From Methanolinea mesophila (GTDB lineage: Archaea > Halobacteriota > Methanomicrobia > Methanomicrobiales > Methanospirillaceae): DNA of 64,000 bases. The position numbers and the translations under genes are program-made. Under the pieces are notes generated by a model. That model was not told the origin of the DNA. It worked only from the letters and a program-made list of their open reading frames with translations, and did no database searches. Below, in pieces: positions 18,226-30,291 of the stretch. The first letter of the stretch is position 1. The number at the start of each line of letters is the position of its first letter. The stretch is from assembly GCF_017873855.1 (NCBI RefSeq), contig NZ_JAGGKR010000002.1:1-64000 (forward strand), written 5' to 3'.

Positions 18226-20367
18226 TTATTCGATTTTCAGGACCATCAGGGTGATATCGTCGAATTGCGGTCGGTTGCCTGCAAAAGCCCGTACATCCTG
18301 CACGACCGCGTCGATGATCCCCCTCGATGAGAGGTGTCGGGATAGCTCGACGATCTTCTCGAGCCGGGCGACTCCGTACTCCTCGTCCTGTTCATTCGCG
18401 GCCTCGGTCACCCCGTCGGTATAGAGCACCGCAATATCCCCTGGTTTAAGATTTACCTCGACAGATTCGAGTTCTATCTCATCGAGAACTCCCAGTGCGA
18501 TTCCTTTTGCCTTGAGGAGGGTTATCCTTTCATTCCCGGTCCCGAACAGGAGCGGGGGATTATGCCCCGCATTCACGAATGTGAGGCTTTTTTCGCGGGG
18601 GTCGAGGATCGCGTAAAAGAGCGTGACGAACATGCTGGTCTTTGAATCGAGGTAGATATTCCTGTTCGCCTCCCGGATCGATTCCGCAGGGTCCGGATTA
18701 TGGGCGGCACTGGCCCTGATAAGCGTCCTGGAGAGCGCCATGAAGAGCGCGGCAGGCACTCCCTTTCCGGATACATCCGCGATCACCAATCCCCAGTGCT
18801 CCTCTCCCACAGGGATGAAGTCATAGAAGTCACCCCCGACCTCGGCGGCCGGGAGATTGAACCCCTGCAGATCGATCCCGGGGAGTACCGGGGCGGCATC
18901 CGGCAGGAAACTCTGCTGGATGCCCTTCGCAATCTCCAGCTCTTTTAATATACGCTCTTTCTCCGCAGTTGTCCTGCGGAGGGTGGCCACGTGTTCCCTT
19001 AAATCCGCCGCCATGTGGTTGAAAGAGTCGGCAAGGTCCTCGAACTCGTCACCGGTATGTACTTCCACCGTATATTCGAGATCGCCCCGCCCGATCGCCT
19101 CGGAACCTCTTTTGAGGTCTTCGAGAGGGCGGGTGAGATACCGGCTGAAAATGAGGGTGAGGACCCCCACGACTGCGAGGAGGACGAGGAACATGGCGGA
19201 AAATATGGTACGCATCATCTCCTGCTGGCTGCCGATATGGGATGCGGTATCTTCCGATGCAGCGAGGATGCTCTCCCTGGTGGAGAGTGCCGGGGCGATA
19301 ACCTCTTCTACCGGCATCACCACCGCCACCGACCAGTTGACGCTCTCCACCGGGGCGTAGGCGATGAACCGCTCCCCGTCCTCGAACATCACCCTCGCAA
19401 TTCCGGTCCTGCCATTTATCATCTCCCGGGTTACCGCCACCAATCCGGGATTTGCGGAATCGAGGAGGTTTTCGGTGACAAAGGACTCGTCCCACCTCAT
19501 GTCCCCGGACGAAAGCCCCGGGCGGGTGATCACGTTGCCGTGCTGGTCGATGAGCATCGCATAGCCCCTGTTTCCGACCTGGGTGCCGATGATATTCTGG
19601 TTGATGGTCTCGATGGTGACATCGGCCCCGATCACCCAGAACCATCCGGATTCGGGATCGTTCACAGGTTTCGAACAGGTGACCATCAGCCCGTGCCCGA
19701 GGAGGTCGACGTACGGCTCGGACCAGGTGACCGAACCCGATTCTTTTGCCTGCGTGAACCACCCTCTCATCCTGGGGTCGAACGATGCGTTTAGTCCTGT
19801 CACCCAGGGATAGATCATGGACATCCCGCTCTCCGTTCCTACGTACACCCCGGCGAGATGCGGGTCGGCATGATAGACCGGGATGAAGATATCGTCCATC
19901 ATGCCCGCCGCATTGCGTTCGGCTAACGGGATGTCCGCTTCTGCGCCCGGAGCGAGGAAGAGCACTGTCGTGCTGTAGATATCGTCCGGGGGCTCGTCCT
20001 GGAGGTAGAAGTGTCGCTCCCTGACCATCGAGGGGTCGGTCTGAAGCTCCCCTGCGTAGTACGCCATGGTGTCGATCTCTCCGTTCACCTGTTCGAAGAC
20101 GATATTGCTGATGTATGCCTGGTCTTTCGCGAGCCTGAGGAGTGAGTCCCTCGCATCCTGTTCGAGGGCCGCGGTGCTGTCGTTCATTGCCCGTGAGCCG
20201 AGTTCGTCGCTCCGGTCCATGGCGAAACGGCTTACGTCTCCCATCTGCACGAATGCGAGTAACCCGGTGACCAGGAGCGCAGAAACGGAGAGTGCGAGGA
20301 AGACCAGCAGGATCTTGGTCCTGACTGATATGCGGACTGCATTCCCGGCGGTCTTCCCGGATCTCAT
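18226..20367 (-). CDS. Membrane sensor with SpoIIE-type PP2C phosphatase output
   Basis: A 713-residue receptor. An N-terminal helix (about residues 17-41) and a second helix near 390-410 flank an extracellular sensor of Cache type (segments YPWVTGLNASFDPRMRGWF and NRGYAMLIDQHGNVITRPG). A HAMP domain follows (RYLTRPLEDLKRGSEAIGRG), then a coiled coil ending in KGIQQSFLPD, then the RsbU/SpoIIE phosphatase domain with GGDFYDF, DVSGKGVPAAL, YTDGVTEA and FDDITLMVL. Such proteins dephosphorylate Ser/Thr-phosphorylated anti-sigma-antagonist-like partners in bacteria; the archaeal target is unknown and none is adjacent. Confidence 0.9.
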   Translation of the reverse strand: MRSGKTAGNAVRISVRTKILLVFLALSVSALLVTGLLAFVQMGDVSRFAMDRSDELGSRAMNDSTAALEQDARDSLLRLAKDQAYISNIVFEQVNGEIDTMAYYAGELQTDPSMVRERHFYLQDEPPDDIYSTTVLFLAPGAEADIPLAERNAAGMMDDIFIPVYHADPHLAGVYVGTESGMSMIYPWVTGLNASFDPRMRGWFTQAKESGSVTWSEPYVDLLGHGLMVTCSKPVNDPESGWFWVIGADVTIETINQNIIGTQVGNRGYAMLIDQHGNVITRPGLSSGDMRWDESFVTENLLDSANPGLVAVTREMINGRTGIARVMFEDGERFIAYAPVESVNWSVAVVMPVEEVIAPALSTRESILAASEDTASHIGSQQEMMRTIFSAMFLVLLAVVGVLTLIFSRYLTRPLEDLKRGSEAIGRGDLEYTVEVHTGDEFEDLADSFNHMAADLREHVATLRRTTAEKERILKELEIAKGIQQSFLPDAAPVLPGIDLQGFNLPAAEVGGDFYDFIPVGEEHWGLVIADVSGKGVPAALFMALSRTLIRASAAHNPDPAESIREANRNIYLDSKTSMFVTLFYAILDPREKSLTFVNAGHNPPLLFGTGNERITLLKAKGIALGVLDEIELESVEVNLKPGDIAVLYTDGVTEAANEQDEEYGVARLEKIVELSRHLSSRGIIDAVVQDVRAFAGNRPQFDDITLMVLKIE

Positions 20368-20474: not shown

Positions 20475-21065
20475 ATGATACTGCCCCGGGACTTCTACGG
20501 GAGGGACACTGTCGAGGTCGCGCAGGATCTTCTCGGGTGCTGCCTGGTTCACCCGGAGGGCAGAAAGACTACTGCGGGGATTATCGTTGAGACCGAGGCC
20601 TACCTTTCCGGTGATCCCGCCGCTCATTCGTATATCGGCAGGACAAACAGGAATGAAGTACTCTTCGGTCCGGTAGGACATGCATACGTTTACCTCATCT
20701 ACGGAATGCACTATTGCATCAATGTTGTGACAGGGGAGGAAGGTTCGGGAGAAGCCGTGCTCGTCAGGGCCCTTGAGCCGGTGATTGGGATCCCTGTCAT
20801 GATCGGGCGGCGGGGAACCCCTACGCTGTCCCGTCTCTGCAGCGGCCCGGGAAAACTCACTCGTGCGATGGGGATCACCCGCGAGTGCAACGGGGTTTCC
20901 TTTGTGAACGGACCTCTCCAGATCCGCACCCGGGAAAATACTACCGGGCCAAATCCCGCGTTGAAGCCCGAGATCGTGCGGACCACCCGGATCGGGATCG
21001 TGAAGGCCGCCGATAAGCCGCTTCGTTTTTACCTGAAGGGAAATCCGAATATCTCACGGAAGTAG
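20475..21065 (+). CDS. DNA-3-methyladenine glycosylase (AAG/MPG family)
   Basis: A 196-residue base-excision repair enzyme that removes alkylated purines such as 3-methyladenine. The start LPRDFYGRDTVEVAQDLLG is family-typical. The VETEAYL segment carries the catalytic Glu, and GRTNRNEVLFGPVGHAYVYL and YGMHYCINVV follow in the usual order. Length is as expected. The start ATG at 20475 lies in a 107-bp divergent gap from the phosphatase gene. Confidence 0.93.
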   Translation: MILPRDFYGRDTVEVAQDLLGCCLVHPEGRKTTAGIIVETEAYLSGDPAAHSYIGRTNRNEVLFGPVGHAYVYLIYGMHYCINVVTGEEGSGEAVLVRALEPVIGIPVMIGRRGTPTLSRLCSGPGKLTRAMGITRECNGVSFVNGPLQIRTRENTTGPNPALKPEIVRTTRIGIVKAADKPLRFYLKGNPNISRK

Positions 21066-22116: not shown

Positions 22117-22206
22117 ATGGACACGAGTCATGGGTACCGGTCGGCAGAAAACCGCGGGATGAGAGGAGACGCACAAGGTCCGGGCAAGGGCGGTGATCTC
22201 TCTTGA
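22117..22206 (+). CDS. Possible 29-residue upstream ORF coupled to the kinase gene
   Basis: ATG at 22117 to TGA at 22204-22206 encodes a peptide beginning MDTSHGYRSAENRG. The TGA overlaps the TTG start of the kinase (TTGA at 22203-22206), the arrangement expected for translational coupling. The Shine-Dalgarno sequence of the kinase lies inside this frame. There is no independent evidence of expression. Confidence 0.3.
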   Translation: MDTSHGYRSAENRGMRGDAQGPGKGGDLS

Positions 22207-23672
22207 AGATCTCGTCCCTCTTTCGCGGAGAAACAGGAATCTGGAATGCGGCCATCAGCATCAGCACGGTCGCGGTCCTCCTGGTGAACAGTTACGGTCT
22301 CTTCCAGGGGATTACGGCGGTATTTCCGCACCTTCTCTACCTTCCGGTGGTACTCGCGGCCTACCGGTACCCCCGCAGGGGACTCATTTTCTCACTAGGG
22401 ATCGCGATGGTGTATATCCTGATGGTGGGGGTCATCATCGGGCCGGTCCCGGGGGTCATCGTGGAAGCGGTGATCCGGGGAATTATGCTGGTCGTGATAG
22501 GCGGGCTTATTGCGTTTATTACCAGACGGCTTTACGAACAGGAAAACCTCTACCGTGGGTTGTTCGATCATTCGGCCGCCGGCAGCATTCTCGTCCGGGA
22601 AACCGGTGAGGGCTGGAGGATTGTCGAGGCAAACGAGAACGCACTTGCCCTCCTCCGCCGTGAGAGGGATGAACTCCGGGACAAACCGCTCACGGTCTTC
22701 TGGAACGCGGAAGAAATGAACGTGTTATTTTCCCGGCTGGCCGGGGAAGGCAAGGTCTACTCGTCCGAGAACACATTCTCCACACCGGACGGGAGTACGG
22801 AGATCGTCCTCCTCTCGCTCGCAAAAGTTCCCGACCGGCAGGCGGTTCTCACATTCGTAGAGATTACGCGGAGGGTGAATGCGGAAGAATCTCTGCAGCG
22901 TGCGAATGATAAACTCAACCTCCTCTCCCGCATCTCCACGGATCATCTCCACCGGACGGCGAACGAGATCATCGAGACCGTGGACGAGGCAAGGATAAAG
23001 AGCACCGATTCCGTGGCGGGAGCCTTCCTGAACCGGGTACGGGTCCTGGCCCTGAACCTCGCCCGTCAGATATTCCTTTCGGAGACCTACAAGGACCTTG
23101 GAGCCCGGCCCCCGGACTGGATCGCGGTCCAGCGGGTGCTCGAAGGATTCGCCCGGACGAATCCGGATCCTGGGATCTCAATGAGGTTCTGGACCGAGCG
23201 CCTGGAGGTGTATGCCGACCCGCTCTTCCGGGACGTGCTCCTCCATATCCTTGAGAACTCGGTACGCCACGGAGTGACCTTGAAAAACCTGGTGGTGACC
23301 TATCACCGTACCGGGGATGGGCTTGACCTGATCATCCAGGACGACGGGGCAGGGATTCCCGCAGGGATGAAAGAAAAGATCTTCGAGTACGATTCGGGGG
23401 GCCATGCGGGCCTGGGGCTGTTCATCTGTCGCCAGATCCTGGATATTACCGGGATATCGATCACCGAAGAGGGGAAAGAAGGGAAGGGAGCGAAGTTCGT
23501 ACTTCATATCCCGGCGGAGAATTACCGGGTCGAGGGGTCCTCCGACGACGCCCCGCCGTTCCCGCTCTCTTCCGATCCCGCTCCTGCGGTAAACCGGGGT
23601 GCACTCCACAAATCCGGGACCAGGGTCCGGGAGTTAACCTCCGCCGAGTTCGCTCTTGCCGAGGAACTCTAG
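22203..23672 (+). CDS. Membrane PAS sensor histidine kinase, interrupted by TAG before a GNAT domain
   Basis: 489 codons from a TTG start with GGTGAT at 22191-22196. Three or four membrane helices occupy residues 13-105. A PAS domain follows (about 115-225; GLFDHSAAGSILVRE), then a helical region (NLLSRISTDHLHRTANEII) and an HATPase with N box HILENSVRHG, DDGAGIP and GHAGLGLFIC. Related methanogen kinases usually have RHD at the phosphoacceptor; here it aligns as TDH, so the His is shifted by one. The C-terminal 20 residues (RVRELTSAEFALAEEL) are the start of a GNAT domain, and the frame ends in TAG although that domain continues in the same frame downstream. See the next entry. Confidence 0.85.
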   Translation: MKISSLFRGETGIWNAAISISTVAVLLVNSYGLFQGITAVFPHLLYLPVVLAAYRYPRRGLIFSLGIAMVYILMVGVIIGPVPGVIVEAVIRGIMLVVIGGLIAFITRRLYEQENLYRGLFDHSAAGSILVRETGEGWRIVEANENALALLRRERDELRDKPLTVFWNAEEMNVLFSRLAGEGKVYSSENTFSTPDGSTEIVLLSLAKVPDRQAVLTFVEITRRVNAEESLQRANDKLNLLSRISTDHLHRTANEIIETVDEARIKSTDSVAGAFLNRVRVLALNLARQIFLSETYKDLGARPPDWIAVQRVLEGFARTNPDPGISMRFWTERLEVYADPLFRDVLLHILENSVRHGVTLKNLVVTYHRTGDGLDLIIQDDGAGIPAGMKEKIFEYDSGGHAGLGLFICRQILDITGISITEEGKEGKGAKFVLHIPAENYRVEGSSDDAPPFPLSSDPAPAVNRGALHKSGTRVRELTSAEFALAEEL

Positions 23673-24053
23673 ATCGACTACCACCAGACCAAAGGAAACC
23701 CCGCCACGGACCGCATATTTGCGGCATTTTCGGACAACCGGGTGGTTTCGGTCGCCCGCTGCAAGCGTCATACGGATGGTATGGAGCTCGACGGGGTGTT
23801 CACGCCCGATGAACTCAGGGGGCACGGATATGCCAATGCGGCGGTATGGGGGCTCGTGGAGGCCTGCGGGCACGACACGATGTACATGCATTCCGTGGCT
23901 ACTCTCACGGGTTTTTACGGGCATTATGGCTTTTTACTCATACCCGAGTACGAACTCCCCGATACCATCCGGGAACGGTATGCCTGGGCCCAGGGTGAGA
24001 TGGAAGGGGCAAACGTCGCCCCCATGAAGCGGCCGCCCGCGGATCCGATATGA
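23673..24053 (+). pseudogene. GNAT acetyltransferase portion continuing in frame past the TAG
   Basis: From the codon after the TAG (23670-23672), the same frame stays open for 126 codons to a TGA. It reads IDYHQTKGNPATDRIFAAF and continues with VSVARCKRH, then the acetyl-CoA-binding motif VFTPDELRGHGYANAAV, then FYGHYGFLLIPEYELP. The N-terminal beta strand of this domain lies before the TAG, so the ATG at 23763 or other internal starts would give an incomplete domain. A Tyr codon at the TAG would give a natural ELYIDYH sequence. Either a nonsense mutation, readthrough or a sequencing error is possible. Confidence 0.7.
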
Positions 24054-24220: not shown

Positions 24221-24718
24221 ATGTCGGTGCCGTTCGAGCTTGTCCTGAAGCAGATCGAGAACCCGGAATCGCTGAACTTTATCCTGGGACATTCCCACTT
24301 CATAAAGACGGTGGAAGACCTCTACGAGGTGATGGCGGGAGCCGTACCGAAGGCGAAATTCGGGTTGGCATTCTGCGAGGCATCGGGGGACTGCCTGGTC
24401 CGCCTGGAGGGAAACGACGAAGGCCTGGTGGAACTGGCAAAAATAAATGCGATGGCACTCGGCGCCGGACACTCGTTCATTCTCTTCATGCGGGACTGCT
24501 ATCCGATCAATGTGCTCAATGCCATAAAGGGCCTCCAGGAAGTGTGTTCCATTTATTGTGCCACTTCCAACCCTGTCCAGGTTATTCTCGCTCAATCTTT
24601 TCAGGGAAGGGGGATCCTCGGAGTAATCGACGGGGCCTGCCCGAAGGGGATCGAAGGTCCGGAAGAGATCTCCGAACGTACCGCGCTGCTGAGAACATTC
24701 GGGTACAAACGGGGTTGA
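24221..24718 (+). CDS. Adenosine-specific kinase (DUF355 family)
   Basis: A 165-residue protein matching the adenosine-specific kinase family almost throughout: LGHSHFIKTVEDLYEVM, KFGLAFCEASGDCLVRLEG, INAMALGAGHSFILFM, YPINVLNAIK and GRGILGVIDG. The structural prototype is from Pyrobaculum; the physiological reaction in methanogens is not settled. Length is typical, and the gene stands alone. Confidence 0.85.
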   Translation: MSVPFELVLKQIENPESLNFILGHSHFIKTVEDLYEVMAGAVPKAKFGLAFCEASGDCLVRLEGNDEGLVELAKINAMALGAGHSFILFMRDCYPINVLNAIKGLQEVCSIYCATSNPVQVILAQSFQGRGILGVIDGACPKGIEGPEEISERTALLRTFGYKRG

Positions 24719-28705: not shown

Positions 28706-29260
28706 CTACTCCCGGGGGTTCTTGTGGTACCGGGAGAGGGTGGCCTGCCGCTGATCCATATATTTCGCATCACATTTTTTGTTGTAGGGGGTCACGGCCC
28801 GCTCGGTGGTGTAAAAGACCAGCTGCCCGATAGGCATCCCGGCATAAATCCTCACGGGCCGCTGGTTCACATTGCACATCTCGAGGGTGATCGAACCGCG
28901 GAAGCCCGCGTCGATCCATCCCCCGGTCTGGTGGAGCTCCACCCCGAGTCGGGCGATACTGCTCTTTCCTTCGATGCTCGCCACGATATTGTCGGGGAGT
29001 TCGATCACCTCCATGGTCTCCGCGAGCAGGAATTTTCCCGGGTGGAGTACGATGGAATCTGCGGTGCACTGCCCGGTCTTTTCATGGATCGTTTCGCTGT
29101 TATAGGGATCGATGACCTCGGGTCCCGGCTCGTACCACGCAAAGTGGTCCCCCAGCCGGATATCGAGGGAGTTTGGCTGGACGAGAACGGGATCAAAGGG
29201 GTCGATGCGGATAAAGCCCCGGGCCACCCGGTCCAGGATCTGCCAGTCGACAAGGATCAT
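28706..29260 (-). CDS. dcd: dCTP deaminase
   Basis: A 184-residue enzyme of the dUTPase fold, making dUTP (or dUMP if bifunctional) from dCTP for thymidylate synthesis. Family features are [31 protein letters not shown], the active-site segment [25 protein letters not shown], and C-terminal [14 protein letters not shown]. Whether it also has dUTPase activity cannot be told by eye. Confidence 0.93.
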
Positions 29261-29572: not shown

Positions 29573-30277
29573 CTATTCCTCTTCGTGCTCCCGGATGTGC
29601 CACTCCGAGCGTCGCATCAGGCCGTGCAGGGTGCTCGCCTCCCGGGCGGTGAGCTGTGCCCTGCCCAGGATGCGTCGCATCATCAGGAGGGTGTTTGCCC
29701 GTTTGAACCGGGGGTGTTCTATCCGGTCGAGGTACCGGTCCATGTGTGCATAGAGGTGCTCCATTTCAAGGGGGGACGCGAGCAGGTATTCGCCGCGCGG
29801 GAGGCCCGCAAGTTCGTAGCAGATCACCCCCACTGCGTGGGACAGGTTGAGGATGGGGTATTCCGGGGAAGTGGGGATGGAACATATGATATCGCTCCTC
29901 CCGATCTCCTCGTTGTTCAGTCCCCAGTTCTCCCTTCCGAAAAGGATCGAGATCCTCCCCTTTACCTTGGGGAGCAGTCCCGCGAGTTCGCGCGGAGAAA
30001 AATAGGGCATCCGCATCGGGTTGCAGATGGACTTGGAAACCTCTCCGGTCGTCGCAACCGTGAGGTGGCTCCGGGAGAAGACCTGCTCAATGGTGCACAC
30101 TTCCGCGCTCTTCAGTACGTCCTGTGCGTGGGAGGCGCGGGCCTTCGCCTCGTCCCCGAGCGGGCAGGGATCGACCAGCACGAGCCGGGAAAAACCGAAG
30201 TTCTTCATCACCCGGGCGGTGAACCCTACATTCCCCTCGTAGATAGGGCTTATGAGTACGATATCGATCTGGGGCAT
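29573..30277 (-). CDS. SPOUT-class RNA 2'-O-methyltransferase (TrmJ-like)
   Basis: A 234-residue methyltransferase. IDIVLISPIYEGNVGFTARV at the N-terminus and FGRENWGLNNEEI and LNLSHAVGVICYELAG near the middle are the SpoU/TrmH knotted motifs, in the group I pattern of TrmJ. It should methylate a tRNA or rRNA ribose using SAM; archaeal TrmJ acts at position 32 of tRNA. It starts 15 nt after GGGP synthase, so the two are probably cotranscribed. ATG at 30277 follows a GTG. Confidence 0.85.
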   Translation of the reverse strand: MPQIDIVLISPIYEGNVGFTARVMKNFGFSRLVLVDPCPLGDEAKARASHAQDVLKSAEVCTIEQVFSRSHLTVATTGEVSKSICNPMRMPYFSPRELAGLLPKVKGRISILFGRENWGLNNEEIGRSDIICSIPTSPEYPILNLSHAVGVICYELAGLPRGEYLLASPLEMEHLYAHMDRYLDRIEHPRFKRANTLLMMRRILGRAQLTAREASTLHGLMRRSEWHIREHEEE

Positions 30278-30291
30278 CACATTCCGGAAGA

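Follow-up and report, generated by a model that had tools for sequence, protein, structure and literature searches.

GNAT acetyltransferases that are regulated by a sensor are already known; for instance, the cAMP-binding Pat of mycobacteria is a ligand-regulated GNAT lysine acetyltransferase with a fused sensory domain. Sensor proteins with a kinase fold but lacking an H-box are known from Methanosarcina, where ATP binding and hydrolysis have been found for the MA_type 2 kinases and no autokinase activity was seen for the member tested (PMC11784639). Acetyltransferases or GNAT proteins are absent from the main text of a census of archaeal two-component systems (PMC5847659). Moreover, we found no description of archaeal kinase-GNAT fusions in the literature searched, which is weak evidence that the fusion family analysed here, which joins the sensor-regulated GNATs, is novel.

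The window, a stretch of 64,000 nucleotides, opens contig C2 in an archaeal genome of 2.66 Mb that is 99% complete. A frame opened by a TTG codon runs for 489 codons up to a TAG, beyond which it remains open for another 126 codons until it reaches a TGA (Table 1). The TTG is immediately preceded by a GGTGATC-like Shine-Dalgarno sequence, and in alignments it lines up with the start codons of relatives. These analyses confirmed the proposal of an earlier note on this DNA that the kinase frame ends at the TAG and that the codons following it complete a GNAT acetyltransferase whose first strand is located upstream of the TAG; the first helix of the domain is located upstream as well. The continuity of the frame past the TAG is not due to chance, because the intact fusion is kept in relatives and because the amino-acid identity to L042, the closest named relative, is 79% after the TAG versus 59% in the kinase part.

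Table 1. Features of the interrupted sensor-GNAT locus, in positions of the window.
Feature	Coordinates	Strand	Remarks
Truncated product: membrane sensor/kinase-fold protein, 489 aa	22203..23672	+	TTG start, TAG end
N-terminal hydrophobic (membrane) region with about four candidate helices	22245..22541	+	Read from the sequence; conserved in the fusions
PAS domain	22599..22859	+	PF13426 PAS_9, residues 133-219, 32.8 bits
Degenerate H-box (LLSRISTDHLHR)	22920..22955	+	Asp at 22941-22943, likely in the phosphoacceptor His position
HATPase_c ATP-binding domain	23226..23519	+	PF02518, residues 342-439, 57.5 bits; retains the N, G1 and G2 boxes
GNAT acetyltransferase domain, interrupted by the TAG	23610..24050	+	
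In-frame TAG	23670..23672	+	Invariant-Trp (TGG) column of relatives; last residue of GNAT alpha-1
Acetyl-CoA-binding motif A (RGHGYA), kept 3' of the TAG	23817..23834	+	Alignment A1
TGA closing the read-through frame	24051..24053	+	

We searched 61 genomes with the GNAT part and obtained matches in 51 of them; the family is kept in 44 of the 51 good genomes of the search (the window genome included). The window genome contained exactly one match, which is the interrupted copy. The named relatives of the gene belong to Methanolinea and other Methanoregulaceae. An intact sensor-GNAT fusion, encoded by a single open frame of about 620-670 codons, is present in 14 genomes of the same family, and a separate collection contributed five further distinct intact fusions. 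Alignment with intact homologues, which the earlier note had recommended, thus revealed that the fusion exists without the TAG (19 intact orthologues). The alternative that the two domains are always separate genes, with the GNAT in another frame, does not hold, as intact single-frame fusions are common. The same note had called the fusion unusual; it is indeed lineage-specific, but it is also recurrent and, as judged from the sequences compared, it is a conserved architecture of the Methanoregulaceae that is not peculiar to the window genome. Several relatives have a SpoIIE-type phosphatase gene, a PF04008 gene and a flavodoxin-like gene as common neighbours, which supports orthology. In the window, genes encoding a Cache-HAMP-SpoIIE phosphatase (18226-20367) and a PF04008 protein (24221-24718) are located near the fusion, and in several relatives they adjoin it or are close to it; a functional link of the phosphatase or the PF04008 gene with the fusion is possible.

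At the column occupied by the TAG, the codon is TGG in 19 out of 19 intact sensor-GNAT orthologues. The encoded Trp is invariant in an alignment of 26 GNATs, which comprises 25 relatives, with Usp-GNAT fusions and one solo protein among them, and the window copy read through at its TAG. It is likewise invariant in solo GNATs that are about 48-59% identical. Distant copies flagged for internal stops conserve the Trp wherever the TAG column is present, and none of the relatives, including these flagged copies, has a stop at this column. Therefore, the TAG is private to the window genome. Conversion of TGG into TAG takes one G>A transition. The suggestion that a Tyr would fit at the interrupted site (ELYIDYH) was wrong, given the invariant Trp of the relatives.

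The same GNAT family also occurs in other contexts. In other Methanomicrobiales its members are joined to universal stress protein domains (L022-L029 and L032-L034, e.g. L028:490-1932); the presence of these domains (PF00582) was checked with Pfam for L023, L028 and L033. The family is also found as solo proteins. In two cases, L101 and L102 (contigs G015:C356 and G033:C16), several tandem or broken copies of the solo GNAT are clustered, and some of them carry frameshifts or stops, which points to local duplication and decay within this family.

A weak DUF4118 match of the relative L042 supports the N-terminal membrane region. Nearly all fusions keep the ATP-binding boxes. The H-box of canonical kinases in the same genome reads LSSITRHDILN, and that of the fusions is LSRISADHLHR or a close variant thereof. 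In ungapped alignments, the column of the phosphoacceptor His contains Asp or Glu in all 20 fusions analysed, and no His column is invariant. Pairwise alignments of the H-box contained a gap in two out of six cases (L003 and L007). With the gap in L003, the phosphoacceptor position would fall on the neighbouring His instead, but L016 has Arg and L043 has Tyr in place of that His. It is likely, not certain, from these alignments that the Asp/Glu corresponds to the canonical H-box His. Hence, of the features by which sensor histidine kinases are recognized, the HATPase_c domain with its N and G boxes is present, but the phosphoacceptor His of the H-box is likely not. The ATPase N-box of L020, a fusion of intact length, is degenerate (LVRNPFRFA versus LVENSLRHG), a hint that some members may do without ATP binding. 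The kinase-like L005 (G000:C1:1600448-1601512), located in the same genome, has FTDIQN in place of the H-box His, and so loss of the H-box is not confined to the GNAT fusion; the L005 match runs across an internal TGA.

The part downstream of the TAG matches GNAT families of Pfam, with a score of 22.8 bits for Acetyltransf_1 (cut-off 20.7). In alignment A1, residues R70, G73 and Y74 of motif A are invariant, and G71 and A75 are nearly so. The GNAT segment, which includes the stretch RYAWAQGEMEGANVAPMK, was modelled by AlphaFold with its relatives, the TAG being read through as Trp (pLDDT 87.8, pTM 0.81). In this model, strand beta-1 precedes the TAG, and the TAG corresponds to residue 21, the last one of alpha-1. 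Foldseek returned many matches to general GNATs, of which ElaA was the best, in agreement with the sequence profiles. The modelled fold, the RGHGYA motif and the Acetyltransf_1 match above its cut-off place the domain in the GNAT superfamily. The in-frame TAG at 23670 predicts that the GNAT domain is incomplete in the translated product.

Constraint on the region past the TAG was analysed by pairwise relative-rate measures. The mean dN of this region relative to that of the kinase part is 0.58 for the window genome, and values of 0.51-0.62 were obtained for other taxa. Compared with L042, the nearest relative, the window copy has a scaled post-TAG excess of 0.015 (bootstrap 95%, -0.038 to 0.066), which is not significant. 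Forty-two post-TAG columns are invariant in all others; the window copy differs at two of them, and both changes are conservative (V>L and L>M). Neither an indel nor a second lesion was detected downstream of the TAG. This normal constraint indicates that the downstream part was under normal selection until recently, which fits a young mutation and, equally, a sequencing error or suppression. The stop is thus very young, erroneous or somehow suppressed. Because synonymous sites are near saturation between the compared genomes, it can be dated no finer than recent on this branch.

We favour a real and recent nonsense mutation of TGG (Trp) into TAG, i.e. an ordinary and not a recoded stop, as the probable explanation. 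Among the three options raised by the earlier note (nonsense mutation, programmed readthrough and pyrrolysine) it is the best supported, by the uniform TGG of the intact fusions and by the one transition required, and the existence of intact orthologues without the stop is what is expected of a unitary pseudogene. Against it count that no member of the GNAT family other than the interrupted copy was found in this genome, so that its loss would remove a function kept by most of the good genomes searched, and that the downstream part is without detectable decay, although the latter is also expected of an error or of full suppression. A sequencing or assembly error would mean that the true codon is TGG and that the fusion is intact in the organism. 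We consider this rather unlikely, but it is a possibility to be reckoned with: it would explain why a lesion-free region under normal constraint follows the TAG, why the sole copy of a widely kept family is affected, and why the affected column is that of an invariant Trp. However, the stretch is present once in the assembly, with the TAG, and a second copy with TGG was not found there. Moreover, the window is not visibly error-ridden, as none of five in-frame ORF pairs tested elsewhere in it consists of two halves of one family, that is, of a gene split by an in-frame stop, and isolated substitutions are uncommon in good assemblies. The comparison covered one genome per species. That the kinase and the GNAT are two separate genes, the latter with its own start, is scarcely credible. 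Although an ORF of 103 aa begins at GTG 23742, its product would be devoid of beta-1, alpha-1 and beta-2 of the fold, and the fused relatives encode the kinase and the GNAT in one uninterrupted frame. This candidate was ruled out on the basis of the missing first structural elements.

A TAG codon in a methanogen brings the insertion of pyrrolysine to mind. Its probability is practically nil, since profile searches of the nearly complete genome revealed no PylS (best score 29.1 bits versus a cut-off of 178) and no match for PylD, and since the relatives carry Trp at a column where the TAG is private to the window genome. The PylS and PylD searches each exceeded the cut-off in one of 14 control genomes, showing that the models work. 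Within the completeness of the assembly, pyrrolysine is therefore refuted. In line with the earlier note, TAG was found to end other genes normally, as it terminates three clear ones (the glycosylase gene 20475-21065, and 28706-29260 and 29573-30280). A real TAG might also be partly read through without pyrrolysine, by a near-cognate tRNA or by a suppressor that escaped detection. The cell would then make the kinase-only form for the most part, and in addition some acetyltransferase of full length. Such a tolerated UAG would account for the still-normal constraint of the lesion-free downstream codons, but we regard it as very improbable. A stop that is subject to programmed readthrough is expected to be conserved at the same position, whereas all relatives compared have TGG (Trp) there and none has a stop in common with the window copy. 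In addition, the RNA 3' of the TAG folds weakly better than shuffled sequences (z -0.75 to -1.8), which is unremarkable for a readthrough element, and a tRNA with a CUA anticodon is absent among the recovered tRNAs, a set that is incomplete (tRNA-Trp is among those missing). Programmed readthrough thus received no positive support.

Under the favoured nonsense mutation, the locus would be an orthologue of the Methanoregulaceae fusion, composed of a membrane sensor, a PAS domain, a kinase core without a canonical H-box and a GNAT acetyltransferase, in which the G>A transition hit the codon for the last residue of GNAT helix alpha-1. Translation would stop at the resulting TAG to yield a 489-residue sensor/ATPase without the acetyltransferase, and the 126 codons past it would constitute an untranslated remnant that has yet to decay. 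In the intact protein, the ATPase core lacking the canonical phosphoacceptor His may gate the attached GNAT by serving as a conformational switch, and the mutation would then uncouple sensing from output. We infer that this protein, when intact, is probably not a phosphotransfer kinase but a sensor driven by ATP that gates its own acetyltransferase. The fusion of this GNAT to Usp domains elsewhere in the order fits a GNAT output operating under different inputs.

By itself, the interrupted codon would be an ordinary event, in which a single-copy gene acquired a nonsense mutation. The truncation would leave the sensor/ATPase with no obvious output of its own, and it would remove the only detected copy of the GNAT family in this genome. 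The useful part is the family revealed by it, in which a kinase-like ATPase core without the phosphate-accepting His is combined with an acetyltransferase in methanogens. If the ATPase does gate acetylation in cis, signalling output would be achieved without passing through response regulators, and the natural truncation in the window would provide a ready-made comparison.

The MA_type 2 proteins RdmS and MsmS of Methanosarcina acetivorans (PMC11784639) have, like the fusion, a kinase-fold ATPase core without a classical H-box. The fusion differs from them by an additional C-terminal GNAT and N-terminal membrane region, and by keeping the H-box stretch with Asp/Glu in the His column. ElaA is the closest solved fold of the GNAT part, and ElaA and PA0115-type GNATs (5z6n and 1xeb) are both among the best sequence-profile matches; however, their identity to the window GNAT is about 15-19% and they are without a fused sensor. 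Pat-type GNATs resemble the fusion in having a signal-input domain and a GNAT output in one chain, whereas the input of the fusion is made up of membrane, PAS and HATPase modules. The Usp-GNAT fusions of the Methanomicrobiales (L023, L028 and L033) have the same GNAT output family with the same invariant Trp, but their input consists of universal stress protein domains instead of a kinase core. Most similar to the window copy are the intact fusions of the Methanoregulaceae (e.g. L042 of Methanolinea sp. UBA473, L047 and L048). They share its domain order, are 55-64% identical to it where the sequences match and likewise have a degenerate H-box, and several of them have neighbour genes in common with it; where these fusions have TGG (Trp), the window copy has TAG.
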